Virus record (IMG/VR): IMGVR_UViG_3300035698_011344
Span: 1-27,404 of that record
Source of the DNA: a virus
DNA length: 27,404 bases
Strand: one strand, 5' to 3'
The notes under the pieces are model-generated. The model made no database searches. It saw only the letters and a program-made list of their open reading frames with translations, and had not been told where the DNA came from. The position numbers and the translations under genes were made by a program. The first letter of the stretch is position 1; each line of letters begins with the position of its first letter. Of this stretch, positions 2,991 through 25,778 are shown piece after piece.

Positions 2991-4311
2991 GAGTGAGAGT
3001 GACAGTCAGATTTTTCGCCCCCACACGGCGAAACAAGACCGTTGTCTGTTTTCAGATAAAAAGATTATCGTCTTAGCTTGCGGCATACAATTTGGCAAGA
3101 CGACCATAGGCGCTACAGCTATGAAGCTGTGGATGCATCGCTACCCCGACCCTGAAAACAATTTCATCCTTACGGCACCGACCTACAAAGTCTTAGACCA
3201 GGCGACGCTGCCCGGGTTTTTAAACTCGATGAAAGGGCTTGGCGAATACCACAAGGGCGATTCTAAATTCATCATGCATAACGGGCCTACTTGTTACGTG
3301 AGGACGTCGACCGACCCTAACTCAATTATAGGTATTACAAACGTGCGTGGGGTGTGGGGTGACGAGGCTGGGTTATATCCTCTCTATTTTTGGGAGAATA
3401 TGCAGGCGAGGGCTTCGTTCAAGCAAGCGCAGATCATCCTGACTACGTCTCCCTACGCTATCAACTGGCTTTACACAGACATTATCCGGCCCTTTCACCA
3501 AGGGAAACTCCAGGACGAGGTTGAGCTTATCCAGGCCCGCTCGGACGAAAACCCTTACTTTCCTAAAGAAGAGTATGAGCGTAAGAAAAAGACTATGGAC
3601 CCTCGCCGGTTCAACATGGTCTATGGCGGAATGTTCGACCGCATGGAAGGTCTCGTCTATGACTGTTTTAATCCAGACGTTCACCTAACGCCTAAGCGCT
3701 CGCTGCCTGATGGTTCCACCGTGGTTTGCGGCGTGGATTGGGGCTACACGAACCCTTCGGCCATGGTAGTCATGGCTCAACTGCCTAGCGGCTCTTACGT
3801 TATCGTAGACGAGCACTATGAGACGCGCCTGACGGTTGCCGACATGGTTAAGATCGCTCGACGGAAAAAAGAGGTTTGGGGGATCACGCGTTTTTACTGT
3901 GACCCGTCTTCGCCGGCCAATATCGAGGAGTTTAACCGGGCTGGGCTAACAGCTCTCAAGGCCGATAACGACATACGGTCGGGTGTGGATAAGGTCTACG
4001 AGCTCTTCAAACAAGACCGCCTGCATATATTCACAGAAAACTCTAAGTACTTAGTCGACGAGCTTGAGACCTACCATTACCCTTCTGATAAGGACGTAGA
4101 CGGCAACACAGACGTTAAAGATTTGTTGCCGGTTAAGCAGAACGACCACTTACTAGATTCCTTAAGATATGTCATTTCTGCTGTCTACTACCGAGGCGTT
4201 GCTAAGCGAGCCCCCAAGTCGCCGACCGAGAACAGTCGCAAGGGAGATCCTGCCTATATGATTGGAGCTCTCTTAAAGTCAGGGACGAAAAACCATGAGG
4301 ATTGGTCATGA
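2959..4311 (+). CDS. terL: Terminase large subunit (TerL)
   Basis: The product has 450 residues. The N-terminal ATPase shows a Walker A variant, GIQFGKTT (42-49), Walker B with catalytic acid in VWGDEAG (132-138), and coupling motif LTTSPY (161-166). The C-terminal RNaseH-like nuclease has GVDWGYT (Asp260), an Asp in YCDPSSP and a terminal Asp in NDHLLDSLRY. The protein pumps DNA into the prohead and cuts the concatemer. The start is the TTG at 2959, inside the 3' end of the neuB-like gene; no ATG or GTG lies between it and the Walker motif, and the ribosome site is poor. Translation may be coupled to the gene before it. The stop overlaps the next start. Confidence 0.93.
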   Translation: MAITALNQPPESESDSQIFRPHTAKQDRCLFSDKKIIVLACGIQFGKTTIGATAMKLWMHRYPDPENNFILTAPTYKVLDQATLPGFLNSMKGLGEYHKGDSKFIMHNGPTCYVRTSTDPNSIIGITNVRGVWGDEAGLYPLYFWENMQARASFKQAQIILTTSPYAINWLYTDIIRPFHQGKLQDEVELIQARSDENPYFPKEEYERKKKTMDPRRFNMVYGGMFDRMEGLVYDCFNPDVHLTPKRSLPDGSTVVCGVDWGYTNPSAMVVMAQLPSGSYVIVDEHYETRLTVADMVKIARRKKEVWGITRFYCDPSSPANIEEFNRAGLTALKADNDIRSGVDKVYELFKQDRLHIFTENSKYLVDELETYHYPSDKDVDGNTDVKDLLPVKQNDHLLDSLRYVISAVYYRGVAKRAPKSPTENSRKGDPAYMIGALLKSGTKNHEDWS

Positions 4312-4676
4312 TCTACCCGTACGAGTGTTCCACGTGCCACCATCGTTTTGATGTCGCCAAGCCCTATAAGGATATCGATCTCCTTGAAACCTGTGCAGGG
4401 TGCGGCTCCGAGGACACAGCACGCTACATGGTGCCCTCGCGTTTGGTGGGTATATCGCCTGGCGAGGCCCACTACTGCGTGCCTTTGGGCGAGGTAGTTA
4501 GGAACGACCTCCATGCTCGAAAACTTGCCAAAGAGCGTGGAATGATAGAAATTGGGAACGAAAGCCTCGATTCCATTCATAAGCACACGGAAGTTGCACG
4601 CGAAAAGCGACTCGAAAAGAGCTATGATGAAGTGACCGACAAGCTCAGAACGGTAGATATTTCTTCGCAGTCCTAG
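4308..4676 (+). CDS. FmdB-like zinc-ribbon protein
   Basis: The product has 122 residues. The first 35 form a zinc ribbon of FmdB type: PYECSTC (Cys7, Cys10) and ETCAGCG (Cys29, Cys32). The remaining residues are charged and helical. Start ATG 4308 overlaps the terL stop (ATGA) and has GAGG seven bases upstream, so it is preferred over TTG 4302. Its place between large terminase and portal suggests a packaging or head-assembly accessory, but FmdB-like ribbons have no single known function. Its last codons lie inside a 48-bp tandem repeat. Confidence 0.7.
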   Translation: MIYPYECSTCHHRFDVAKPYKDIDLLETCAGCGSEDTARYMVPSRLVGISPGEAHYCVPLGEVVRNDLHARKLAKERGMIEIGNESLDSIHKHTEVAREKRLEKSYDEVTDKLRTVDISSQS

Positions 4677-7876: not shown

Positions 7877-8800
7877 ATGGCGCTTACTATCGACCAGCTA
7901 AATGCGGTCACACAAGACTATTACGTTAAGAAACTACACGATAACGTTTTCGACTCGAACGCTTACCTTCAGCGCTTGCGCAAGGGTGGCCACTACACGT
8001 CAGTAGCCGGAGGCACGAAGATTCGTGTTCCTTTGAACTACGCGACCACTAGTGCAGCGGGATGGTTTGACGGTGCCGACACTCTCGACACGACCGATAA
8101 CGACAACATCACTGCGGCCGAGTATGACTGGAAGTCGTTCTATGCGAACGTAACCATCTCCAAAAAAGATGAGTTAATGAACTCAGGCGCTCAGCAAGTG
8201 CTAAGCCTCGTTCGCTCTAAGATGCAAATCGCAGAGAAGACGCTCAAGGACACTTTGGGTACGGGCCTTTATTCAAACGGCACTACTGCTAAGTCTATTA
8301 TCGGCCTTCGAGATATCGTGGCCGTTGACCAGACTGTTGGTGGGATTAGCCAGACGCTTAACTCTTGGTGGCAGGCAAACGTTGATTCAACAACGACTAC
8401 CCTGACTATCTCTGCAATGAACGCCGTCTATGAGGATTGCGTTGTTGACAGCGAAAAGCCAAGTGTCGCCCTAACGACTCGCACACTCTATAACAGCTAC
8501 TACGCCCTCCTACAGCCACAACAACGGTTTATGGATGAAAGCACTGCTAAGGGTGGGTTTCAGTCACTGATGTTTAACGGCGTGCCAGTTATCGCTGATT
8601 CACATTGCCCGGCTAATCACATGTTTTTCGTTAACGAAGCGCACGCACCGTTGTTCTACCACCCGGATCGCAACATCAAGATGATGCCTTGGCAGGAGCC
8701 GATTAACCAAGAGGTTAAGGTATCGCGGGTTTTATGGATGGGCGCTTTCGGCTCTTCTAACAACAGATTGCACGGCGCTCTAACAGCGACGACTAGCTAA
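7877..8800 (+). CDS. Major capsid protein
   Basis: The product has 307 residues, with the strongest ribosome site of the head genes (AGGGAGG, about nine bases from ATG). It has an HK97-like pattern: an N-terminal helix (MALTIDQLNAVTQDYYVKKL), a beta stretch with TKIRVPLNY, the long helix region QQVLSLVRSKMQIAEKTLKD and an A-domain-like C-terminus ending near VSRVLWMGAFGSSNNRLHG. Position after scaffold supports the call. The middle is rich in surface-type Ser/Thr/Asn stretches (QTLNSWWQANVDSTTTTLTI), relevant because a Maf-type glycosyltransferase lies two genes downstream. Confidence 0.9.
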   Translation: MALTIDQLNAVTQDYYVKKLHDNVFDSNAYLQRLRKGGHYTSVAGGTKIRVPLNYATTSAAGWFDGADTLDTTDNDNITAAEYDWKSFYANVTISKKDELMNSGAQQVLSLVRSKMQIAEKTLKDTLGTGLYSNGTTAKSIIGLRDIVAVDQTVGGISQTLNSWWQANVDSTTTTLTISAMNAVYEDCVVDSEKPSVALTTRTLYNSYYALLQPQQRFMDESTAKGGFQSLMFNGVPVIADSHCPANHMFFVNEAHAPLFYHPDRNIKMMPWQEPINQEVKVSRVLWMGAFGSSNNRLHGALTATTS

Positions 8801-8817
8801 CCATAAGGATTAAAACT

Positions 8818-9291
8818 ATGTCTTTTCAAAGTGTAGCGCCCATAGGTTTCTATGGAAAATCACACGTAACGGACGCACTCGGTGGCAACCACCCTGAAGT
8901 TGGAACTCGAAAGGGTTTTGATGGAGAAGAGTACGTTTGGGTTTATAACGACGGTGGCGCGCAGATCCAGCCAAGCTATGCAGCAACAGTTGTTGCTAAC
9001 AGCGGCATGTCTGTAACCATCAGCTCGACAACTTCTAGCGACTTTTTGGTAGGTGTTTGTAAGCACTCCACCATCACAACCGCTGCTTACGGTTGGTTGT
9101 TGACCAAGGGGTTCGCAACCGTTGAGATGGAAGCGGATAACTCTTGTGTAACTGGCGGTCTGTTGACTGTCGCTGCTAACGGCGAGTTTGCACTCAAGAG
9201 CAACTCTACCGGCTACCCAGCTCCGGCTGTTGGTAAAGCAGTAGGGTCCATCGCTTCCGGCGCGTCTGGCAGTGCTTTTATTAACGTCTAA
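8818..9291 (+). CDS. Capsid decoration/head protein
   Basis: The product has 157 residues, beta-rich, Gly/Ser/Thr-rich and without cysteine clusters. It has the pattern common in phage head decoration proteins: KGFDGEEYVWVYNDGG, a Ser/Thr-rich hydrophobic stretch (SGMSVTISSTTSSDFLVGV) and a repeated TKGFATVEM / GKAVGSIASG turn. AAGGA lies eight bases before the ATG. It sits between the capsid gene and the Maf-like gene and is a reasonable candidate acceptor for glycosylation. The exact family was not identified. Confidence 0.72.
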   Translation: MSFQSVAPIGFYGKSHVTDALGGNHPEVGTRKGFDGEEYVWVYNDGGAQIQPSYAATVVANSGMSVTISSTTSSDFLVGVCKHSTITTAAYGWLLTKGFATVEMEADNSCVTGGLLTVAANGEFALKSNSTGYPAPAVGKAVGSIASGASGSAFINV

Positions 9292-9302
9292 AGGTTTATT
9301 TT

Positions 9303-10313
9303 ATGCCCCGAACGAGAGAAATAGTTTGCGAGTATCAACCGTACGTGTTCGATCCACCCGTTGCGAAAAACGACCTGTATAAGCAGGCTTGTACGAACGA
9401 CGGCAACACGGTCGAACGCTGGCGAGATCCTTGGATAGCAAACGTGCGTGCGAACAAGGAGCGTTTTGGCTCATTCGCCGATAACTCTGTCGGCTCGCTA
9501 TTTGGCCAGTACTTACACCGGCCGATAATCATAGCGGGCTCGGGGCCTAGCCTTAAGTACAATGTCGACACCCTTAAACACCGTGGCGAGGTCCCACTCG
9601 TTAGTTGCCTTCATAACTTTCACTTTATGGAAGATCATGACGCTAGAGTCGATTACTACGTCACCCTAGATGCGGGGGAGATCACTGTAGAAGAAGTTTC
9701 AGAGGGCGGCGATCCCGATAAGGACTATTGGGCTATAACGAAGGATCGCACCTTGCTTGCTTTTATTGGTACGCATCCATCGCTTCTCGAGAAGTGGCAG
9801 GGGAGGGTGTTGTTTTTTAACGCACCCGTACCTGACGATACGTACCAAAAAGAGGTTAACGAGATCGAGCCGTTCAATGTTTACGTCTCTAACGGCGGGA
9901 ACGTGTTCGGCTCTTGTCTTTATATCTCAAGAGCTATCCTGGGGTCTCCCACGGTTATTTTCGTTGGCGCTGATTTTTCGTTTGGCTACGATAAGCGCTT
10001 TCACGGGTGGGGGTCGAAGTACGACGCTAAGATGGGCCGCGTGGTTCCCTTAACCGACGTATTCGGCAACCGTGTTGCGACATGGCCTAGTTACGCTGGC
10101 TTTAAAGCTTGGTTTGATTGGGTGTCTTTAAACGTACCGGGAACCTATATTAACTGCTCCGAAGGCGGGTGTTTAGGCTCTTACCCTCACGGCAATCTGT
10201 CGTCTATTCGGCAGATGGATCTTGAGGAGTGTCTGGACATGTTCCACCAAAAAGCAGAGATCAAAGCACAGTGCGAGGACCCTTCGCAGGAGTCTCGCTT
10301 TATCATGTTTTAA
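9303..10313 (+). CDS. Maf-like/DUF115 (MptE-like fold) putative virion glycosyltransferase
   Basis: The product has 336 residues. Family signatures are RPIIIAGSGPSL (73-84), the nucleotide-binding loop of DUF115/Maf proteins, YVTLDAGE, VSNGGNVFGSCLYISRAILG, TVIFVGADFSFG and, near the end, YAGFKAWFDW followed by YINCSEGG. In Campylobacter, Aeromonas and some Gram-positives, Maf proteins of this family transfer CMP-activated pseudaminic, legionaminic or sialic acids to Ser/Thr of flagellin. Here it lies directly after the decoration protein, with AAAGG upstream. Other members of the fold are 6-hydroxymethylpterin diphosphokinases (MptE), but no pterin gene is present and five sugar genes are. 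Transfer to a virion protein is inferred from context. Confidence 0.75.
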   Translation: MPRTREIVCEYQPYVFDPPVAKNDLYKQACTNDGNTVERWRDPWIANVRANKERFGSFADNSVGSLFGQYLHRPIIIAGSGPSLKYNVDTLKHRGEVPLVSCLHNFHFMEDHDARVDYYVTLDAGEITVEEVSEGGDPDKDYWAITKDRTLLAFIGTHPSLLEKWQGRVLFFNAPVPDDTYQKEVNEIEPFNVYVSNGGNVFGSCLYISRAILGSPTVIFVGADFSFGYDKRFHGWGSKYDAKMGRVVPLTDVFGNRVATWPSYAGFKAWFDWVSLNVPGTYINCSEGGCLGSYPHGNLSSIRQMDLEECLDMFHQKAEIKAQCEDPSQESRFIMF

Positions 10314-10330: not shown

Positions 10331-10597
10331 ATGGCGTTTACAGTTAGTCGCAAACATACGACGTTTGGTAACCAAAAAGTAGTGCTCATGGATGTTACTA
10401 CAGACGGTGCCGAAGATAACATTGACTCAGGCGTAGACGTTATTGACGCGTTTGCTATTGGAACGAAGTCTATAGCCACGTCCGCTTTCTCGCTGAAGCC
10501 AAACACTGACAGCTCGGGAGTTGTTTCTAAGGGAACGATTGGCGCTAGCGGTATGGCATCGGGTGACACTTTCTTTCTTACTATTTATGGTCGCTAA
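10331..10597 (+). CDS. Small beta-rich phage structural protein
   Basis: The product has 88 residues: an opening MAFTVSRKHTTFGNQKVV, an acidic middle (DGAEDNIDSGVDVIDAF) and a Gly/Ser/Thr-rich C-terminus. TAAGGAG is ten bases before ATG 10331, so upstream in-frame starts inside the Maf-like gene are rejected. Its position between head and connector genes suggests a minor virion protein. It is of a kind often seen after phage capsid genes but has no function I can name. Confidence 0.7.
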   Translation: MAFTVSRKHTTFGNQKVVLMDVTTDGAEDNIDSGVDVIDAFAIGTKSIATSAFSLKPNTDSSGVVSKGTIGASGMASGDTFFLTIYGR

Positions 10598-10624: not shown

Positions 10625-11020
10625 ATGAGAGTCAAGGTTTACAACGATAATACGTTTCCTCTAACCGAAGAGTTTAAGGAGGAGCAGATTGTCATTGCAC
10701 CGGGTGGCTATGTCGAGATGGATCGAGGAGAGGCTGTTTTGTTTAAAGGACAGTTTCGACAACCGAAGTTTTTGGCTTCGGGCGTACAAGATCCAACATC
10801 TTTTAAGATGATTAGACTTGAGCCTTTAGCAGACAAGCCCGGCGGGTCAACCTCTTCTGTAAAGAGTGAGATTTCGGCGCGAGACGACGACACTATATGT
10901 CAGGCGTGTGGGTTTCAGGCTAAGTCTAAGTCGGGGCTACTAACCCACATTCGTCACTCGCATCAAGAGACGATGCTAGACGACGACGCCAAAAAGGAAC
11001 TAATAGAGAATGTTGTTTAG
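10625..11020 (+). CDS. Phage protein with C-terminal C2H2 zinc finger
   Basis: The product has 131 residues. Residues 1-70 look like a small beta domain (RVKVYNDNTFPL, IVIAPGGYVEMDRGEAVLFKGQF). Residues 92-113 form a classical C2H2 finger with Cys92, Cys95, His108 and His113 (spacing C-x2-C-x12-H-x4-H), followed by an acidic tail. ATG 10625 has GGAG six bases upstream; an in-frame TTG at 10613 is less likely. A zinc finger in a gene embedded among connector genes is unusual. It might bind DNA at the portal, or regulate, or just stabilise the fold. Confidence 0.75.
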   Translation: MRVKVYNDNTFPLTEEFKEEQIVIAPGGYVEMDRGEAVLFKGQFRQPKFLASGVQDPTSFKMIRLEPLADKPGGSTSSVKSEISARDDDTICQACGFQAKSKSGLLTHIRHSHQETMLDDDAKKELIENVV

Positions 11021-11918: not shown

Positions 11919-12541
11919 CCCCTTCAGAAATAGAGGCCGCTGCTAAGTCTCGATATAACGCTGACCAAGACGACTTTTTCCCGTCTACTATGTGTATGAA
12001 CTTGATCTATCAGGCGTCGATGGCCCTAGCGGTTGAGACGCATTGTATAGAAAAAACTTTCCAAATCAGCTCGGTAGCCGATCAAAGGGAGTACACAAAA
12101 CCAACGTATGCGATTGGTGTCAGGCGTGTCGAGTACGATGGGCGCAAGATTTGGCCAGCGAGACTAGAGGCTGACCCTAAGACGTCGACAACGGAGTCTA
12201 GTGGCAGGCCGACACATTACGCCGAGTGGGGGAGCGAGGTCATACTGTTTCCTACGCCTGACCAGGCTGGCAAGGTTATAAAGATGTTTACTTACAACGA
12301 GCCTCAACCCGTCTTGTCGACTTCGGTCTTAGAGGCTCCGAGCGAGTACCACCTGGACATGATCGACTTTTTATTGTCGTTCTTTTTCGCTAAGGACAAG
12401 GACCGCCAGATGGCGACTTACCACATGTCGCTTTGGAACGCTGCTGTAGGGCGGATAAAGAGAGACCGGGCCAAGAGAAAACGAGGCGACCAGTTGACGT
12501 CGGTTAAAGATGAGACCGAGCTAGGGCGGCGCTACGTATGA
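11915..12541 (+). CDS. Head-tail adaptor/connector protein
   Basis: The product has 208 residues. Helical N-terminus (TPSEIEAAAKSRYNADQDDF and LIYQASMALAVETHC) followed by a beta domain (SVADQREYTKPTYAIGVRRVEYDGRKIW, VILFPTPDQAGKVIKMFTY split by a turn) and a basic helical tail is the pattern of podovirus adaptors of the P22 gp4/T7 gp11 kind that dock under the portal. The TTG start at 11915 overlaps the preceding stop (TTGA) and has GGAG six to seven bases upstream. The stop overlaps the next ATG. Confidence is moderate because the family is divergent. Confidence 0.7.
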   Translation: MTPSEIEAAAKSRYNADQDDFFPSTMCMNLIYQASMALAVETHCIEKTFQISSVADQREYTKPTYAIGVRRVEYDGRKIWPARLEADPKTSTTESSGRPTHYAEWGSEVILFPTPDQAGKVIKMFTYNEPQPVLSTSVLEAPSEYHLDMIDFLLSFFFAKDKDRQMATYHMSLWNAAVGRIKRDRAKRKRGDQLTSVKDETELGRRYV

Positions 12542-14457
12542 CCTCACCCCACAACAGACGCTATCCGGCTAAGGGACGCGTGCTTTTCGACGCCGGGCTC
12601 AATAATAAGTTCGAGCGCGCTCTTATCGAAGATCATGAGTCACCCGATTGCCAAAACGTTGTATTCGGTAACATGGCCGTAGAGACGAGGGGCGGAAGCG
12701 ATCTGCTCAACTCGGCCTCGGTGGGCTCGTTTGTATGCGATGGTTTATTTACCCGCCATGACGACGCCGGCGACACCCAGACGATGGTTGCTTGGTGGGG
12801 CGGGACTTTGCATACCTATGACGGTGCGTCGACGTTTACGACGGTGCCGTCTTCGGTCTCTATCTTTACGGCAGGCGTGAATGTTACAGCCGCCGAGTAT
12901 GAGAACTATGTTTTTTTTGGTAACGGTAACTCAACTCCTTACAAGTACGGTGGGGGTGGGAATACGTTTACACGTCATGGCGTACCAGCTCCGACCACGT
13001 CTTTAACGGTAGCAACGGCAGCAACGGGCACAGCCCTGACGGGTGAGTTTCAGTATGGCTACACGAACGTTAACTCAAACCTAGTCGAGTCGGATCTTAG
13101 TCCGTTAACGCCGACGTTCACAGCGGCCTCTGAAAACGTAGCGCTAACGACGATAGGCACAGCTCCGGTATCACACGGCGTTAACACGAGAAACCTTTAC
13201 CGGACGGCAAACGGTGGGGCGACTTTCAAGCGCCTGGTATCTATTGCTGACAACTCGACGACGAGCTACGACGACGCTATCTTAGACGCGGCACTAGGCA
13301 CCGACGCCCCGGCAGACCAGGGTGAGCCCCCGGCGTATTCTCGGATTCTGTTCCACCAAGCGCGGATGTTCGTGATCGACGACACGGAACAACTGGTCAA
13401 ATACTCCGAGGTTGGTAACCCGTATGTTTTTAAGGCGACTAGTTTTTTACGTATTGGTGACGCTTCTGGCGACACACCTATTGGTCTCGACATTTTCGAT
13501 AACTCTTTAGTTGTCCTCTGTAGAAATTCGCAGTGGATTGTTTACATGCCATCGGCTACCGATACGGACTGGCGGATCATCAGGGTGAGAGCTCCCTACG
13601 GCACACGGTCACCCTTTGGCTCTTTTAAGTACGATAACAAGGTTATGTTTCCGGCCGTACAGAATGACCGTCTGGTAGGTTTCGCTGCTATTAACGGCGA
13701 TACAATCGACCCTTCGGTATCGTTTCTTACGGTTTCAGCGGCTGGCTCAGAGCTACAATCCGATCGCATTGAGCCTGATATTTTCCAGGTTCAAGACGGC
13801 CAGCTAGCTAAGATTCAATCGATCGTTCATAAGAACAAGGCTTACATCTCGGTTACCTACACTACGGGTGCGACGTCGAATGACCGCATCTATGTGTTTG
13901 ACTTTTCGTTGTCGTCTTCTAATCTTAACAATAAGAACCGAACCAGTTGGGTGCCTTGGACGGGAATTAATGCGTCTCACTTTACTACCTATGCGGGTGA
14001 TCTTTATGCGGCCGACGCTGCTGCAACGGGTCGAGTGTGGAAGTTAAACACGTCGACTTATAACGACAACGGCGCGGCGATTAACAGCTACCTTTGGACT
14101 AAGGAGTTCTCTGGTCTACCGGGTGACGAGCACTTACATAAAGATTTTCGTTTTGCGCAGATATTCTACGAGAAGTCTGGCGCTTACTATATGGGGCTTA
14201 CCTTAAGAACAGATTCTGATTCGGGGTCTGGCGATACGAGTCAAATCGATTTAGACCCTGGCCAATCGGTTTGGGGTGCAATGCGTTGGGGGCTGGAAAA
14301 CTGGGGTGGCGGGCAGTCGGAGTCGGAACTACGTCGATCGATCGCGCCTAAGCGTGGCAAGCGTATCCAGTTTAAGTTTTCTAATCAAAACACCGTGAAT
14401 CAAAAGTTTAAGGTTCTCGGTCTTAACTTTATCTACAACAATAAGGGGCCAAGGTAA
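12538..14457 (+). CDS. Stabilisation/nozzle-like tail protein
   Basis: The product has 639 residues and is almost all beta strand, with repeated blades (SFVCDGLFTRHDDAG, MVAWWGGTLHTYDG, YVFFGNGNSTPYKYGG, FHQARMFVIDDTEQLVKYSE, NSLVVLCRNSQWIVYMPS), a pattern resembling beta-propeller tail proteins such as P22 gp10 or the T7 nozzle. An N-terminal NNKFERALIEDHESPDCQNV is typical of these proteins. A WGAMRWGLENW motif lies near residue 575-590, shared with the gene at 11523. ATG 12538 overlaps the previous stop. Likely the tube below the adaptor through which DNA leaves. Confidence 0.75.
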   Translation: MTSPHNRRYPAKGRVLFDAGLNNKFERALIEDHESPDCQNVVFGNMAVETRGGSDLLNSASVGSFVCDGLFTRHDDAGDTQTMVAWWGGTLHTYDGASTFTTVPSSVSIFTAGVNVTAAEYENYVFFGNGNSTPYKYGGGGNTFTRHGVPAPTTSLTVATAATGTALTGEFQYGYTNVNSNLVESDLSPLTPTFTAASENVALTTIGTAPVSHGVNTRNLYRTANGGATFKRLVSIADNSTTSYDDAILDAALGTDAPADQGEPPAYSRILFHQARMFVIDDTEQLVKYSEVGNPYVFKATSFLRIGDASGDTPIGLDIFDNSLVVLCRNSQWIVYMPSATDTDWRIIRVRAPYGTRSPFGSFKYDNKVMFPAVQNDRLVGFAAINGDTIDPSVSFLTVSAAGSELQSDRIEPDIFQVQDGQLAKIQSIVHKNKAYISVTYTTGATSNDRIYVFDFSLSSSNLNNKNRTSWVPWTGINASHFTTYAGDLYAADAAATGRVWKLNTSTYNDNGAAINSYLWTKEFSGLPGDEHLHKDFRFAQIFYEKSGAYYMGLTLRTDSDSGSGDTSQIDLDPGQSVWGAMRWGLENWGGGQSESELRRSIAPKRGKRIQFKFSNQNTVNQKFKVLGLNFIYNNKGPR

Positions 14458-20033: not shown

Positions 20034-20222
20034 GTGGTTTGTCTTAGTTTTTCCTACTGGCTCTACCGCAAATCAAGAATAGCCCCACCTAAACAGCCCC
20101 AGTTAACCCTCGATGCCAGCCAACTATTGGAGCATCTGCTAAGCGACGAGGCTGTCGTTGTCTTAAAAGTATGGGACCAACGGCACGTGTTGAATTGGTC
20201 GCCTAGAGGGCGAGACGTGTGA
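20034..20222 (+). CDS. Small membrane protein, start uncertain (possible frameshift)
   Basis: From GTG 20034 the product has 62 residues: a hydrophobic segment (VCLSFSYWLY), basic residues, then a soluble part with DASQLLEHLLSDEAVVVLK. GTG 20034 has no ribosome site and cuts into the hydrophobic stretch, because the open frame extends back to 19992 with more membrane-like sequence. If the T6 run at 20015-20020 were T5, ATG 19988 would read MNQFLYINIFFLLISVVCLS directly into this frame, a far better membrane anchor. The stop overlaps the next start (GTGA). Function unknown. Confidence 0.5.
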   Translation: MVCLSFSYWLYRKSRIAPPKQPQLTLDASQLLEHLLSDEAVVVLKVWDQRHVLNWSPRGRDV

Positions 20223-21070
20223 AGTATGTTATTTTCGGAGGTACAGGCACCTTAGGCCACGCATTGGCTAAGCGTCTTACGAACGAAGACGATGTCACGG
20301 TAATCTCACGGTGCGAGCTACGTCAAAAACAGATGGCCGTACTTTATCCTAAGTTTCAATTCATTCTCGGCGACGTAACCAGCCCGGACTATCATGCTTG
20401 GCCGCAGAGCGCGGACTTTGTCTTTAACTTCGCTGCTCAAAAGCACGTCGAAATAGCCGAGGCTAACCCGGCCTGGACGCACCGTGTTAACTACCTTGGT
20501 GCGGTTAATACGGCTCATTGGGCTGAGAGCGTCTTGGCGTCGTTTCATATATTCACGTCTACCGATAAGGCTGTGCTACCCATAAACACTTACGGAATGA
20601 CTAAGGGCTTGGCGGAACGCTACCTACTGTCGCTAAACACAACACGGCCAAACGGCCCCCACCAGGTGGTGTATCGCTGGGGAAATATCCTCGGCTCTCG
20701 GGGCTCGGTGCTATCGACTTTCGTAGACTTACTGAATAGACGCTTGCCGATAACGATAACTGACAAGCGTATGACCAGGTTCTGGGCTCACATTGACGAC
20801 GTCGTCGACTTTATGATGAACAACATTCCTGAGCGTAGTGGCGAGGTCTTGTATCCCGAGATGAAAGCCGCGCCGGTCGTGGATTTGGTTCACGTTTTAG
20901 CGCTACATCTCGGTATTAAAAATTACGAGATTAAAGAAATCGGAATACGTGCAGGAGAGAAGTTACACGAATGTCTCGAGACTTCGCACACTGGTTGTAT
21001 CAGATCGGACACGGCCCCTCAGTACTCGGTCGACGAATTGCGAGGATTAGTCGCGAGGGCGCTAGGATGA
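20219..21070 (+). CDS. SDR, UDP-HexNAc 4,6-dehydratase-like (PseB/CapD type)
   Basis: The product has 283 residues. It has the Rossmann loop GGTGTLG (7-13), FNFAAQKHVEIAEANP, STDKAVLPINTYGMTK with the catalytic Thr/Asp/Lys117 area and Tyr125-x3-Lys129, RWGNILGSRGSV, RMTRFW and IRAGEKLHE. These are signatures of the PseB/CapD/FlaA1 group, which converts UDP-GlcNAc to a 4-keto-6-deoxy sugar, the first step of pseudaminic- or legionaminic-type pathways. It is slightly shorter than the usual 330. GTG 20219 has GAGGG eight bases upstream and overlaps the previous stop. The precise stereochemistry (with or without C5 epimerisation) cannot be decided by eye. Confidence 0.85.
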   Translation: MKYVIFGGTGTLGHALAKRLTNEDDVTVISRCELRQKQMAVLYPKFQFILGDVTSPDYHAWPQSADFVFNFAAQKHVEIAEANPAWTHRVNYLGAVNTAHWAESVLASFHIFTSTDKAVLPINTYGMTKGLAERYLLSLNTTRPNGPHQVVYRWGNILGSRGSVLSTFVDLLNRRLPITITDKRMTRFWAHIDDVVDFMMNNIPERSGEVLYPEMKAAPVVDLVHVLALHLGIKNYEIKEIGIRAGEKLHECLETSHTGCIRSDTAPQYSVDELRGLVARALG

Positions 21071-21645
21071 TTCTACTCATTGGTGCCAAGGGAAACATGG
21101 GGCGACGCTACTCTCTGATATTAAAGCATCTGGGAGAGGACGTCCGCGAGGTAGACCTAGGCGATAGGCTGGACGCCTCCGGCTGTAAGGCTATCGTAAT
21201 CGCTACACCAACACCCACTCATTACGAGCTGATAAAACACTGCGCTGGCTACGGCCTGCCGATCCTCTGTGAAAAGCCCATAACCCAAAGCCTTAAAGAG
21301 CTTGAGGAGTTGTTAGAGCTCCCGATGCCCTTGGCGATGATTAACCAGTACCGCCATATCAGCTCAGATGCCGAGAACCGACCTAGCTATTACAACTACT
21401 TTAAGACGGGAGGCGATGGCCTCGGTTGGGACTGTATCAACATTCTCGGCCTGGCTAACGATGCCGTAGAGGTAGCGTCGGACGCATTCATTTGGGAGTG
21501 TACGATTAACGGCTCTACGGTAAAGATCGAGAATATGGACATGGCCTATCTCATGGAGCTTAGAGACTGGCTGAGTACTTACCGCGACGACCGCGAATAC
21601 ATTATCAAGGCTCATACGAGGGCGGCTAAATGGCGAGCATCCTAA
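21067..21645 (+). CDS. Short Gfo/Idh/MocA-like oxidoreductase
   Basis: The product has 192 residues. The Rossmann half is clear: LIGAKGNMGRRY (4-15), AIVIATPTPTHYELIKHC and LPILCEKPI (64-72) with the Glu69-Lys70-Pro71 motif whose lysine is catalytic. The substrate half is greatly reduced; family members normally have 300-350 residues. ATG 21067 overlaps the dehydratase stop (ATGA) and has GAGGG upstream, so upstream starts at 20971 are rejected. In sugar clusters these enzymes oxidise or reduce sugar nucleotides or sugar acids with NAD(P). The step here is unknown. Confidence 0.75.
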   Translation: MILLIGAKGNMGRRYSLILKHLGEDVREVDLGDRLDASGCKAIVIATPTPTHYELIKHCAGYGLPILCEKPITQSLKELEELLELPMPLAMINQYRHISSDAENRPSYYNYFKTGGDGLGWDCINILGLANDAVEVASDAFIWECTINGSTVKIENMDMAYLMELRDWLSTYRDDREYIIKAHTRAAKWRAS

Positions 21646-22328
21646 TAGGGATACAGGCTAGGTCAAACTCGACTCGCTTTCCCAATAAGGTCATGGCCCC
21701 CTTTAACGGCAAAACTATGCTGGACGCAGTTATCACGGCCGTAGAAAAGTCGGCGGGCTACGTCAATAGGATGCCCCGCTTCAAGGTCAGCGTCGCCTTA
21801 CTGGTGCCTTTTGGAGATCCTTTATTTGATCTTTATGGGCGGAAAATGTGTGTTATCCAAGGCCCAGAAGAGGACTTAGTGGCTCGCTACATGGAAGCGG
21901 TAAAGCTGTTTAAGCCTGAGTACGTTGTGCGTATCACGTCAGATTGTCCGATGATACCTCCTCCGATTATCACAAAGCATATAACCATCGCCGTAAACAA
22001 CAAGCGCGATTACGTCGCTAACTGCGACCCTGATCTTAGGACGGCCCCGGACGGTCACGACGTCGAGGTATTCTCGACACGTCTGTTCGAGTGGCTACAC
22101 ACTACGGCTACGTCTATGGCCGACCGCGAGCACGTCGGCACCCTGGTAAGAGAGTCGCCACCTGAGTGGGCAAACACCCATCACCTTAACGGATTCACGG
22201 ACCAATCGGAAAAGATGATATCGGTAAACACGCAAGCCGACCTTGAGAGGACGGTTAGCGAGCACTCGACGATTCAAGACAAGATAGATAGGGCGCGGAA
22301 AAAGTATGGCCAAGTTACCCAATTTTGA
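21630..22328 (+). CDS. SpsF/NeuA-type cytidylyltransferase
   Basis: The product has 232 residues. IGIQARSNSTRFPNKVM (6-22) is the nucleotide-binding loop of the SpsF/NeuA/KdsB group. EEDLVARYMEA, VRITSDCPMI, DGHDVEVFS, ADREHVG and SVNTQADLE follow in the expected order. The enzyme should activate a sialic-acid-like sugar with CTP to the CMP form. ATG 21630 has GAGGG seven bases upstream and overlaps the previous gene by 16 bases. SpsF proteins in bacteria often sit beside a class III aminotransferase, as here. The exact sugar is unknown. Confidence 0.85.
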   Translation: MASILIGIQARSNSTRFPNKVMAPFNGKTMLDAVITAVEKSAGYVNRMPRFKVSVALLVPFGDPLFDLYGRKMCVIQGPEEDLVARYMEAVKLFKPEYVVRITSDCPMIPPPIITKHITIAVNNKRDYVANCDPDLRTAPDGHDVEVFSTRLFEWLHTTATSMADREHVGTLVRESPPEWANTHHLNGFTDQSEKMISVNTQADLERTVSEHSTIQDKIDRARKKYGQVTQF

Positions 22329-23520
22329 AACGTGGCGTAGAGCTCAAAAAGTTATCGGACAAGGCTGTCTCACTAACTCAAAGCATCCGCGCACGTTTGT
22401 TCGTGGTGTATATCCGACCCATGCTACTCGGGGCAAGGGCTGCTATCTATATGACGAGACGGGTCGCGAGTACGTGGATTTTATCTGTGGACTTGGATCG
22501 AACCTTATCGGCTACGGTAATCCTTATATTTCTAAAGCGATAGAGCGCCACCTTTACGATGGTTTTTCTCACTCTCTACCTACCCTTTTAGAAATAAAGA
22601 TGGCCGAAAAACTCCAAGAGATAATCCCCTTTGCCGAGCAGTCTAAGTTTTTAAAGACGGGCTCGGAGGCGTGCTCAGCGGCTGTACGTATGGCTAGAGC
22701 AGCGACGGGCAGAGACCTTATCCTCTCGGATGGTTATCATGGGTGGAGTGACGGTTTTACGTCGTTAACGAAACCTGCTACTGGGTGCAACTGGTCTCAT
22801 AGGGTGTCGTCTCTAAGCGCACTAGAAGACATCACTAAAGACGTTGCTGCGGTGATAGTGGAACCAGTGGTTACTGATGACTCACAGGGACGCTACGAAT
22901 ATCTGGAAACACTCCGGCAGTCGTGTGACCAGGTAGGCGCTTTGCTGATCTTTGACGAGGTAATCACCGGTCTACGCTATGACCGCTGGTCGGTCTCTGG
23001 ACATTCGGGCGTAACGCCTGATTTGATAGTCCTTGGCAAGGCCTTGGGTGGCAATCTACCTTTGGCGGCCGTGTGTGGTCGACGAGAACTTTTGAGCGGT
23101 GACTACTTCGTAAGCTCAACTTTTGGTGGCGAGATCTTATCGCTAGCGGCTGGCCTTGAGCTGATAACCATCCTCCAGAAAAAATCAGACTATGACCCCT
23201 CGAATTTCTCTCGAGAGACGAGACGTTTTTGCGAAGAGTTTAACGCCTTCGACCCTCGCAGTATTCAGATCGAGGGCTTTGGCACTAGGGGAGTTTTAAG
23301 GGCAGACCCAGAATACAAGGCTTTATTTATGCAGGAAGCTTGTGATGCGTCGATGCTATTCGGCCCGAGTGTATTCTTTTGTTACTCCCACCTAGAGCAT
23401 TTAGGACGTTTGTTGAGAGACCTGTCTACAGTTGTCGACAAGGTCTCCAGCGGTAAAGTAGCGTTTCGTGGCAAGATGCCTGCTAGCCCGTTTGCACAAA
23501 AAGTCAGAGAAGGAACTTAA
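22306..23520 (+). CDS. Class III PLP aminotransferase (GSA-aminomutase-like)
   Basis: The product has 404 residues, a full-length family member. Hallmarks are LYDETGREYVDFICGLG (48-64), KTGSEACSAAVRMARAATG (117-135), YHGW (144-147), Asp217 in FDEVITG (216-222) and the probable PLP lysine Lys245 in LGKALGGNLP. It resembles HemL-type enzymes, but the sugar neighbours argue for a sugar aminotransferase, often annotated as spore-coat or polysaccharide aminotransferase beside SpsF. This differs from classical pseudaminate or legionaminate clusters, which use DegT-type aminotransferases. It overlaps the previous gene by 23 bases; the ribosome site is weak, so coupled translation is likely. Confidence 0.88.
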   Translation: MAKLPNFETWRRAQKVIGQGCLTNSKHPRTFVRGVYPTHATRGKGCYLYDETGREYVDFICGLGSNLIGYGNPYISKAIERHLYDGFSHSLPTLLEIKMAEKLQEIIPFAEQSKFLKTGSEACSAAVRMARAATGRDLILSDGYHGWSDGFTSLTKPATGCNWSHRVSSLSALEDITKDVAAVIVEPVVTDDSQGRYEYLETLRQSCDQVGALLIFDEVITGLRYDRWSVSGHSGVTPDLIVLGKALGGNLPLAAVCGRRELLSGDYFVSSTFGGEILSLAAGLELITILQKKSDYDPSNFSRETRRFCEEFNAFDPRSIQIEGFGTRGVLRADPEYKALFMQEACDASMLFGPSVFFCYSHLEHLGRLLRDLSTVVDKVSSGKVAFRGKMPASPFAQKVREGT

Positions 23521-23524
23521 AGTA

Positions 23525-23752
23525 ATGACAGACGACGAAAAGAAGATGGTTACGTTTACGAGTTTGACAGATGCCTTAGAGTTTCTCGGCAAAGAGGAGG
23601 AGGAGCTTGCGCGAAAGGGTACTCTTTTCGGCGCTCACTTCAAGGAGCTTTGTGGCTACCACCCCCAGCAACCCGTGACCGCTAGCGACGTTGTAAAGAT
23701 TGTCTCTCGCATGTTATCGGGTAACGAGACGGGCGGCGATGTCAAAGCTTAA
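23525..23752 (+). CDS. Small acidic protein in sugar operon, unknown
   Basis: The product has 75 residues and is charged and helical (TDALEFLGKEEEELARKGTL; VTASDVVKIVSRML). The ATG at 23525 is four bases after the aminotransferase stop, with AAGGAA upstream; the longer reading from 23468 is inside the aminotransferase gene. There is no DSL motif, so it is not an ordinary acyl carrier protein. It may be a small partner subunit of a sugar enzyme. It overlaps the next gene by 14 bases. Confidence 0.6.
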   Translation: MTDDEKKMVTFTSLTDALEFLGKEEEELARKGTLFGAHFKELCGYHPQQPVTASDVVKIVSRMLSGNETGGDVKA

Positions 23753-24257
23753 CGACAAGACGGCACTCGGGCCTTTGCGGGAGCAGAACCTAGCGCAGTA
23801 CTTTAAGTGGAGGAACACGCCCGATCTATGGCGCTGGTGTCGTCAAAGCGATGTACTGCAATGGTACGCTCACATTGACTGGTTTAACGGTTTGAGAGAC
23901 CGCACGGACCTTAGGATGTATGAGATCCTAGCGCCCAAAGAAAAGTGTGTCGGCGTGTGCGGGTTGACGAGTATAGACCAGTTGAACCAACGAGCGGAGT
24001 TTTCTCTTTACGTAGCACCGGAACACCAAGGGACGGGCTACGGTAAATCAGCCCTAGCGCTGCTCTTATCTCACGGTTTTAGGCACCTAAATCTGAACGT
24101 TATCTGGGGAGAATCGTTCGACAGCAACCCAGCGCTACAGATGTTTGAGGCCCTCGGGTTTGTAAACGAAGGCCGACGCAGGGACTTTTATTTTCGAGAC
24201 GGTAAGTTTATAGATGCGCATTTAGTGTCAATGAGGAGAGCCGAGTGGATCTCCTGA
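23739..24257 (+). CDS. GNAT N-acetyltransferase, PseH-like
   Basis: The product has 172 residues. The sequence begins LGPLREQNLAQYFKWRN, resembling PseH and RimJ/RimL-type enzymes (the KWRN motif at 23-26). The acetyl-CoA loop is EHQGTGYGKSAL (about 104-115), and SNPALQMFEALGFVNEGRRR is the usual C-terminal GNAT motif. In the pseudaminic pathway PseH N-acetylates the 4-amino sugar made by the aminotransferase. ATG 23739 has GGGCGGCG just upstream and overlaps the previous gene by 14 bases; the longer start at 23700 has no support. Confidence 0.82.
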   Translation: MSKLNDKTALGPLREQNLAQYFKWRNTPDLWRWCRQSDVLQWYAHIDWFNGLRDRTDLRMYEILAPKEKCVGVCGLTSIDQLNQRAEFSLYVAPEHQGTGYGKSALALLLSHGFRHLNLNVIWGESFDSNPALQMFEALGFVNEGRRRDFYFRDGKFIDAHLVSMRRAEWIS

Positions 24258-25193: not shown

Positions 25194-25419
25194 CATCGTG
25201 TTGGCTACGGCGTGGGGTTGCTGCTCAGCTCCTGTCGAGCCGTCTGGTATCCAAGGGCCTTTGGGTCCGTGGTCGCCTAAGATTTGGGCGTCGGATTTCG
25301 AGAGAAGCGGGGTCACCAGGGACGGTGTCCTCCTCCAATGCAATGACTGGACTTTCGATGGCTACCTTTGCATGCACGAACAGGATTTCGAGGAGCTGGC
25401 AGAGAGATGTCTTCAATGA
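25150..25419 (+). CDS. Secreted or lipoprotein-like lysis protein (o-spanin candidate)
   Basis: The product has 89 residues. A signal peptide is clear (MKLRNSKMLLSVFFSIVLA) with cysteines at 24 and 25 after AWG, a degenerate lipobox with Trp at -2, so lipid attachment is possible but not certain. The mature part has CNDWTFDGYLCMHEQDFEEL. ATG 25150 gives the needed positive n-region; ATG 25171 has a better ribosome site (AAGGA, eight bases) but lacks it. It overlaps the M15 peptidase gene, an arrangement often seen for outer-membrane lysis proteins. Confidence 0.62.
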   Translation: MKLRNSKMLLSVFFSIVLATAWGCCSAPVEPSGIQGPLGPWSPKIWASDFERSGVTRDGVLLQCNDWTFDGYLCMHEQDFEELAERCLQ

Positions 25420-25778
25420 TGATTACCGAGAATTTCTCTAGAGACGAGATCATGTGCCGCTGTGGTTGTGAAATCGCCAATATCGATTTGGAGTTTTTGA
25501 ACCGAGTTCAAACTCTGAGGACACACTACGACCGCCCGATGGTCATAACCTCAGGCTGCAGGTGCCCGGAGTGGAACGAGGAGCAGGGTGGCGCTAAGGC
25601 ATCGGCTCACCTGTCGACTACAACTCAGCAGTGCTACGCAGTGGATGTCCGTATCCACGGCAGCGCTGATAGGCATGACTTTCTTAGGATGGCTATGCAG
25701 CTCTTCGATGGTGTCGGCATCTACGAGGGCTGGATACACATCGATGGCCGCGTTGGCGAGACGTGCTGGGTTAGGTAG
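25407..25778 (+). CDS. M15-family peptidase, probable endolysin
   Basis: The product has 123 residues. SRDEIMCRCGC is followed by VITSGCRCPEWN (46-57), then SAHLS, YAVDV and WIHIDG. His68, Asp80 and His111 match the zinc ligands of M15A peptidases of the DUF882/VanY group, which cut peptidoglycan peptide cross-links. The loop between His68 and Asp80 is several residues longer than the usual SxHxxGxAxD spacing. There is no signal peptide, so release by a holin is expected. Start choices are 25407 (used), 25416 and 25419. The next gene converges after six bases. Confidence 0.82.
   Translation: MSSMMITENFSRDEIMCRCGCEIANIDLEFLNRVQTLRTHYDRPMVITSGCRCPEWNEEQGGAKASAHLSTTTQQCYAVDVRIHGSADRHDFLRMAMQLFDGVGIYEGWIHIDGRVGETCWVR

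Follow-up and report, generated by a model that had tools for sequence, protein, structure and literature searches.

The DUF115 protein encoded in the capsid operon of a widespread group of uncultivated, tailed phages resembles the central domain of the flagellin glycosyltransferase Maf and occurs together with nonulosonate-type sugar genes in the same genomes. With a probability of about 0.63, these phages make a CMP-activated nonulosonate with enzymes of their own and use the DUF115 protein to attach this sugar to a virion protein. The window, i.e. the whole stretch of DNA that was analyzed, is an IMG/VR record of 27,404 bases and features a P22-type portal, a terminase, and a major head protein, as judged by family searches. 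Relatives of 34–40 kb suggest that it is a partial genome. The DUF115 gene and its closest neighbors are:

7877–8800, + strand: major capsid protein, candidate acceptor (phrog_9953, E 1e-64)
8818–9291, + strand: putative decoration protein, Ser/Thr-rich, candidate acceptor (between the major capsid protein and DUF115 genes in 84 of 84 loci)
9303–10313, + strand: DUF115/Maf-central-domain-like protein, proposed CMP-nonulosonate:protein transferase (PF01973, E 1.3e-17; AlphaFold2 pLDDT 94.3; best fold match Maf 5mu5)
10331–10597, + strand: small conserved protein directly 3′ of DUF115, candidate acceptor or virion protein (16 of 17 genomes by local profile)

The DUF115 protein is a single-domain protein of 336 amino acids. 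Its gene starts 11 bases behind the stop codon of the decoration gene (9291) and is followed after 17 bases by the next small gene (10331), all on the same strand. In the Pfam scan, it matches PF01973 with 64.5 bits compared with a cut-off of 34.6; this is the DUF115/MptE-like family, which also contains the Maf central domain. The motifs GSGPSL (residues 79–84), VGADFSF (221–227), and NCSEGG (284–289), read as DUF115/Maf signatures in the preliminary description, are all present, and the family match bears this reading out. The location in the structural operon close behind the decoration gene, also proposed there, is confirmed and is kept lineage-wide. Sixty aligned relatives are 46–63% identical to the DUF115 protein of the window. 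Across 61 aligned DUF115 proteins, the motif residues G79, G81, L84, G222, F227, N284, and G289 are invariant, and so are H104, N105, D123, G198, G199, F233, H234, W236, Y240, D241, G297, and N298.

The structure of the DUF115 protein was predicted with AlphaFold2 from 61 sequences at a pLDDT of 94.3 and a pTM of 0.92, superseding a model with a pLDDT of 74 that had been built from too shallow an alignment. A Foldseek search of the PDB ranks Magnetospirillum Maf (5mu5) first (E 5e-9) and archaeal MptE/HPPK (8sd5) second (E 3e-5). The comparison with Magnetospirillum Maf proposed in the preliminary description gives the same order in VIA-align: Maf superimposes with a Z score of 22.6 over 242 residues at 3.1 Å and MptE with 14.9 over 194 residues at 3.0 Å, followed by SteA (10.4), Cst-II (9.6), and ST8SiaIII (9.4). 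In the comparison with GT42/Cst-II, His234 of the DUF115 protein is invariant among its relatives. A profile of 61 DUF115 relatives has a sole significant match among solved chains, again Maf 5mu5 (E 2.4e-4). The match covers residues 238–515 of 5mu5 only, which is the central Maf domain. As modeled, the DUF115 protein is thus closer to the Maf central domain than to MptE; a best structural match to MptE, named as a refutation in the preliminary description, did not arise, and the Maf-like identity given in the preliminary description stands for the central-domain fold. It does not extend to a full Maf, as both flanking Maf domains are absent; with no flagellin present either, the DUF115 protein is not a true Maf. 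MptE is a smaller protein than Maf and is aligned over 194 of its 216 residues (90%), and hence the fold alone leaves the function unsettled. Two further PF01973 matches in actinomycete genomes appear SteA-like and thiamine-pyrophosphokinase-like, as judged by eye.

The donor of the proposed reaction would come from sugar genes on the same contig, a phage-borne nonulosonate pathway that was not part of the finding in the preliminary description:

2190–2990, + strand: NeuB/PseI-like nonulosonate synthase (PF03102, E 9e-39; 8h2c, E 2e-23; 16 of 17 genomes)
20034–20222, + strand: small conserved protein with a hydrophobic N terminus, preceding the sugar cassette (16 of 17 genomes)
20219–21070, + strand: PseB/FlaA1-like UDP-GlcNAc 4,6-dehydratase of the SDR type (PF02719, E 1e-52; 2gn4, E 3e-40)
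21067–21645, + strand: Gfo/Idh/MocA-type oxidoreductase-like protein (PF01408, E 7e-11; conservation pattern)
21630–22328, + strand: CMP-sugar synthetase, CTP_transf_3 (PF02348, E 3e-18; cytidylyltransferase 6oew, E 5e-18)
22306–23520, + strand: class-III (HemL-like) PLP aminotransferase (PF00202, E 2e-42; 6w80, E 2e-45)
23700–24257, + strand: PseH-like GNAT N-acetyltransferase (PF13302, E 1e-16)

The closest solved relatives are the UDP-GlcNAc C6 dehydratase 2gn4 for the dehydratase, the pseudaminic acid synthase 8h2c for NeuB, and the glutamate-1-semialdehyde aminomutase 6w80 for the aminotransferase (E 2e-45). Conserved motifs comprise STDKA...YG..K in the dehydratase (15 genomes), QAR..S.R.P.K in the CMP-sugar synthetase, and the GKA lysine of the aminotransferase at residue 245. 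The open reading frame of the MocA-like protein is listed from 20971; its conservation begins only at the internal ATG at 21067. Compared with the curated families, the acetyltransferase lies slightly below the cut-off of TIGR03585 PseH (83.8 bits, E 1e-23; cut-off 93.1), the best NCBIfam match of the dehydratase is TIGR03589 at 157 bits (cut-off 408), and NeuB matches TIGR03586 and TIGR03569 equally at approximately 123 bits, far under their cut-offs. Family scans of the cassette reveal no PseC of the DegT type—the class-III HemL-like enzyme occurs there instead—and no PseG UDP-sugar hydrolase among the cassette reading frames scanned in this partial genome. The pathway therefore differs from the textbook one, and since no enzyme reaches an equivalog cut-off either, the evidence reaches no further than a nonulosonate-type, pseudaminic-like product. 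Part of the gene combination is not unique to phages, since on a Methylomagnum plasmid, an SDR gene and a NeuB-family gene adjoin a gene related to that of the aminotransferase; the other plasmid relatives of the aminotransferase that were inspected lie mostly in different loci. Among the remaining genes of the window, the protein at 20034–20222 has a conserved C-terminal end resembling RSPR, the gene upstream of NeuB (843–1610) encodes a LamG/concanavalin-like domain protein with relatives in a few related genomes only, and a Peptidase M15 protein (25368–25778) is a probable endolysin.

In the proposed mechanism, NeuB, the PseB-like dehydratase, the class-III aminotransferase, the PseH-like acetyltransferase, and the CMP-sugar synthetase would yield a CMP-activated nonulosonic acid in the infected cell, and the sugar produced would be a pseudaminic-acid-like nonulosonate. 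The DUF115 protein—putatively a stand-alone Maf central domain with a sialyltransferase-like fold—would transfer this sugar to Ser/Thr residues of a virion protein. The transfer would take place in the cytoplasm during assembly, while the virion proteins are made. Maf likewise acts on flagellin in the cytoplasm, ahead of export and assembly (PMC4065374). The genomic context lends good support to the donor and the reaction. Fold class, gene content, and the conserved position and linkage are direct results, from which the reaction, the nature of the sugar, and a virion protein as acceptor are inferred.

The association of the DUF115 gene with capsid and sugar genes recurs throughout the relatives. 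A single-protein search of viral contigs identifies 9 loci with DUF115 relatives and a profile search 137, and the order capsid–decoration–DUF115 on one strand is found in 84 of the 84 loci that show both ends; together with the conserved motif residues, this excludes chance as the origin of the DUF115 placement. NeuB occurs in 33 and the CMP-sugar synthetase in 18 of 46 DUF115-bearing records; in long relatives of at least 33.9 kb, both are present in 15 of 16. Local profiles across 17 genomes, including the window, detect the DUF115, decoration, and capsid proteins and the aminotransferase in all 17, NeuB, the CMP-sugar synthetase, and the acetyltransferase in 16 each, and the dehydratase and the MocA-like protein in 15 each. 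All members belong to one lineage, and the linkage counts are hence non-independent. Loci sampled via an unrelated conserved tail-region protein (12538–14457) carry DUF115 in 51 of the 51 cases with enough upstream sequence, so that the association is no artifact of searching by DUF115. When sampled via the aminotransferase, the best approximately 50 loci carry cassette genes, nearly all together with other markers of the phage group. Divergent members (L362, L374, L379, L387, and others) have the cassette upstream of the terminase in a changed gene order, in most with NeuB inside; DUF115 still follows the capsid and decoration genes in the four of these loci that are long enough (L362, L374, L379, and L387).

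Among 50,697 isolated-phage records, DUF115 has no relatives at E 1e-3, the tail-region protein (12538–14457) and the CMP-sugar synthetase have none, and the sole match of NeuB is a record of the bacterium Moritella viscosa. The capsid protein of the window is 32–33% identical to the major capsid proteins of Mx8 and BUCT555, and in a sister capsid lineage (61–66% identical to Mx8), DUF115 and NeuB are both absent from all 80 loci and from all 19 long contigs. Scanning genomes for hosts yielded a single short contig, from an actinomycete MAG, a signal too weak for a host call. Six members (G007, G010, G012, G013, G024, and G035) share a protein of 350–390 amino acids that is tyrosine recombinase-like by eye, which suggests that some members are temperate.

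The position of the DUF115 gene implies a co-produced virion protein as candidate acceptor without specifying which one. Leading candidates would be the operon neighbors, i.e. the decoration protein, the capsid protein, and the small 3′ protein (10331–10597). The label of the putative decoration protein is based on position and size only, with zero family matches in Pfam and phrog searches. Ser/Thr-rich stretches had been taken in the preliminary description to mark the decoration and capsid proteins as acceptors; this is not upheld, as the Ser+Thr content barely exceeds that of counterparts in phages without DUF115, at 20.1% versus 18.1% for the decoration proteins and the gene in the same place, and 17.5% versus 14.7% for the capsid proteins. 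Four other structural proteins of the window are richer in Ser/Thr than these two, and the small 3′ protein reaches 24% in the window copy; Ser/Thr richness was hence rejected as a non-specific acceptor signal. Maf glycosylation sites follow no known sequon (PMC11339370). A mirror-tree analysis detects no extra coevolution of DUF115 with the decoration protein (partial r 0.01), and the partial r is small for the protein at 10331 (0.21), the zinc-finger protein (0.19), and the capsid protein (0.16). Neither Ser/Thr content nor coevolution thus points specifically to the decoration protein among the candidate acceptors. The structural operon also encodes a conserved protein of zinc-binding type with a C2H2-like finger (CQACGF...HIRHSH; 10628–11020) and, between terminase and portal, a conserved Zn_ribbon_8-like protein (4302–4676). 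A scan for promoters and terminators yielded matches at chance level.

A target outside the virion is the foremost alternative, and an improbable one: the DUF115 protein might place the phage-made nonulosonate on the host surface (LPS, capsule, or flagellin), altering the receptor and excluding superinfecting phages. The sialyltransferase Cst-II, whose substrate is lipooligosaccharide, shares the DUF115 fold (Z 9.6), and a role in O-antigen modification is frequently ascribed to glycosyltransferases of phages, as in pelagimyophages (PMC7029224). However, in 84 of 84 loci the DUF115 gene has a fixed place between the decoration gene and further structural genes, and it stays by the capsid gene even where the sugar cassette has moved. 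The annotated genes include no flippase, polymerase, or membrane partner. Another phage type, with a capsid protein of the SU10 type (PF17236), likewise bears a DUF115 gene, encoding a protein of 23–26% identity, directly behind the capsid gene—in one locus from an actinomycete genome assembly (L215) and in one from IMG/VR (L295). The latter, a 28-kb fragment, carries neither NeuB nor a CMP-sugar synthetase; methyltransferase and radical-SAM genes lie between its DUF115 gene and the next structural genes.

Several members retain DUF115 without the main cassette. One genome (G021) lacks NeuB, the dehydratase, the MocA-like protein, the CMP-sugar synthetase, and the acetyltransferase; its DUF115 is intact, and at the usual cassette place it has an aminotransferase shortened to 316 amino acids (L106 8140–9090, corresponding to G021 28140–29090), possibly the remnant of a natural loss of donor synthesis. 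In L290 and L292, most of the cassette is missing at the usual place and DUF115 is kept, and L273 keeps DUF115 with zero cassette genes within the stretch read. L290 also features an inverted repeat of one coding stretch (1–247 and 3926–4366), probably an assembly artifact. A phage-made donor is therefore not obligatory, and DUF115 is retained more strictly than the genes that would supply its donor. This pattern would be expected where certain hosts themselves produce a CMP-nonulosonate that DUF115 can use. The same retention, along with the descent of all counts from one lineage, would also fit a DUF115 protein without catalytic activity that serves in assembly or in the virion on a borrowed fold and is linked to the cassette by mere common ancestry. 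This is quite unlikely, as the pocket-type residues G79-x-G81, H104-N105, D123, H234, and N284 are invariant over 46–63% identity and in G021, and the cassette survives rearrangement. Least probable of all is a function on a small molecule, either that of an MptE-like 6-hydroxymethylpterin diphosphokinase or that of some other nucleotide-dependent enzyme. It has the common Pfam family name and the second-best fold match (Z 14.9) in its favor, whereas Maf covers more of the DUF115 chain with a higher score, the window proteins scanned include zero pterin/folate genes, and long relatives almost always carry CMP-sugar genes.

Transfer of a nonulosonate to a virion protein is kept as the main reading. 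A more far-reaching version of it is tentative and falls somewhat short of even odds: the capsid would be coated with a sialic-acid-like (nonulosonic) sugar lineage-wide and self-sufficiently, the transferase being a free-standing Maf core and the pathway a variant with a class-III aminotransferase and a MocA-like protein instead of PseC and PseG; phages with SU10-type capsids would use the same type of transferase. If the main reading is true, enzymes of their own give these phages a negatively charged coat resembling sialic acid, which would likely affect adsorption, stability, and recognition. Glycoengineering would also gain small Maf-type enzymes that stand alone and act on acceptors other than flagellin, and phage genes labeled "MptE-like" and annotated as coding for pterin kinases would find an explanation. 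Virion glycosylation as such is already known; a Maf-type transferase together with own sugar genes as near-core phage genes appears to be new, as the part of the literature covered holds no account of phages pairing a capsid-operon Maf-type transferase with a nonulosonate pathway.

Compared with known systems, the DUF115 protein resembles the Maf flagellin nonulosonate transferases (5mu5 of Magnetospirillum; CbMaf) in three respects: the PF01973 domain, with the best fold match over 242 residues; the nonulosonate synthesis genes in the same genome; and the predicted cytoplasmic protein glycosylation. Maf has a three-domain architecture (PMC11339370). The DUF115 protein, in contrast, comprises 336 amino acids without the N-terminal Rossmann-like and C-terminal helical domains, is 15% identical, and at every locus has its gene within the capsid operon of a phage, with no flagellin genes. 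Archaeal MptE/HPPK (8sd5) shares the Pfam family and the core fold but features a lower structural match and another genomic context. The "MptE-like" proteins of uncultured Caudovirales in BFVD (e.g. A0A0F7L3H2) have the same fold and are of phage origin; they differ by an identity of 15–16% for the best matches and are annotated by domain name only. The sugar genes share with the pseudaminic acid pathway (PseB-C-H-G-I-F) a PseB-like dehydratase, a PseH-like acetyltransferase, a PseI/NeuB-like synthase, and a CMP-sugar synthetase; unlike in that pathway, a class-III aminotransferase stands in for the DegT-type PseC, a MocA-like protein is added, no PseG is seen among the cassette reading frames scanned, and the scores stay under the equivalog cut-offs. 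Glycosylation of capsid and tail is known from mycobacteriophages (PMC12619734, PMC12691614), with glycans at the C termini of capsid and tail-tube proteins (PMC12619734), as far as the accessible parts of these accounts go. The system presented here resembles mycobacteriophage virion glycosylation (Freeman et al. 2023) in a phage-encoded glycosyltransferase and a proposed glycan on capsid or tail proteins. Unlike in those accounts, which in their accessible parts give no CMP-nonulosonate cassette or enzyme type, the phages of this group would combine a nonulosonate-type donor with a DUF115 transferase.
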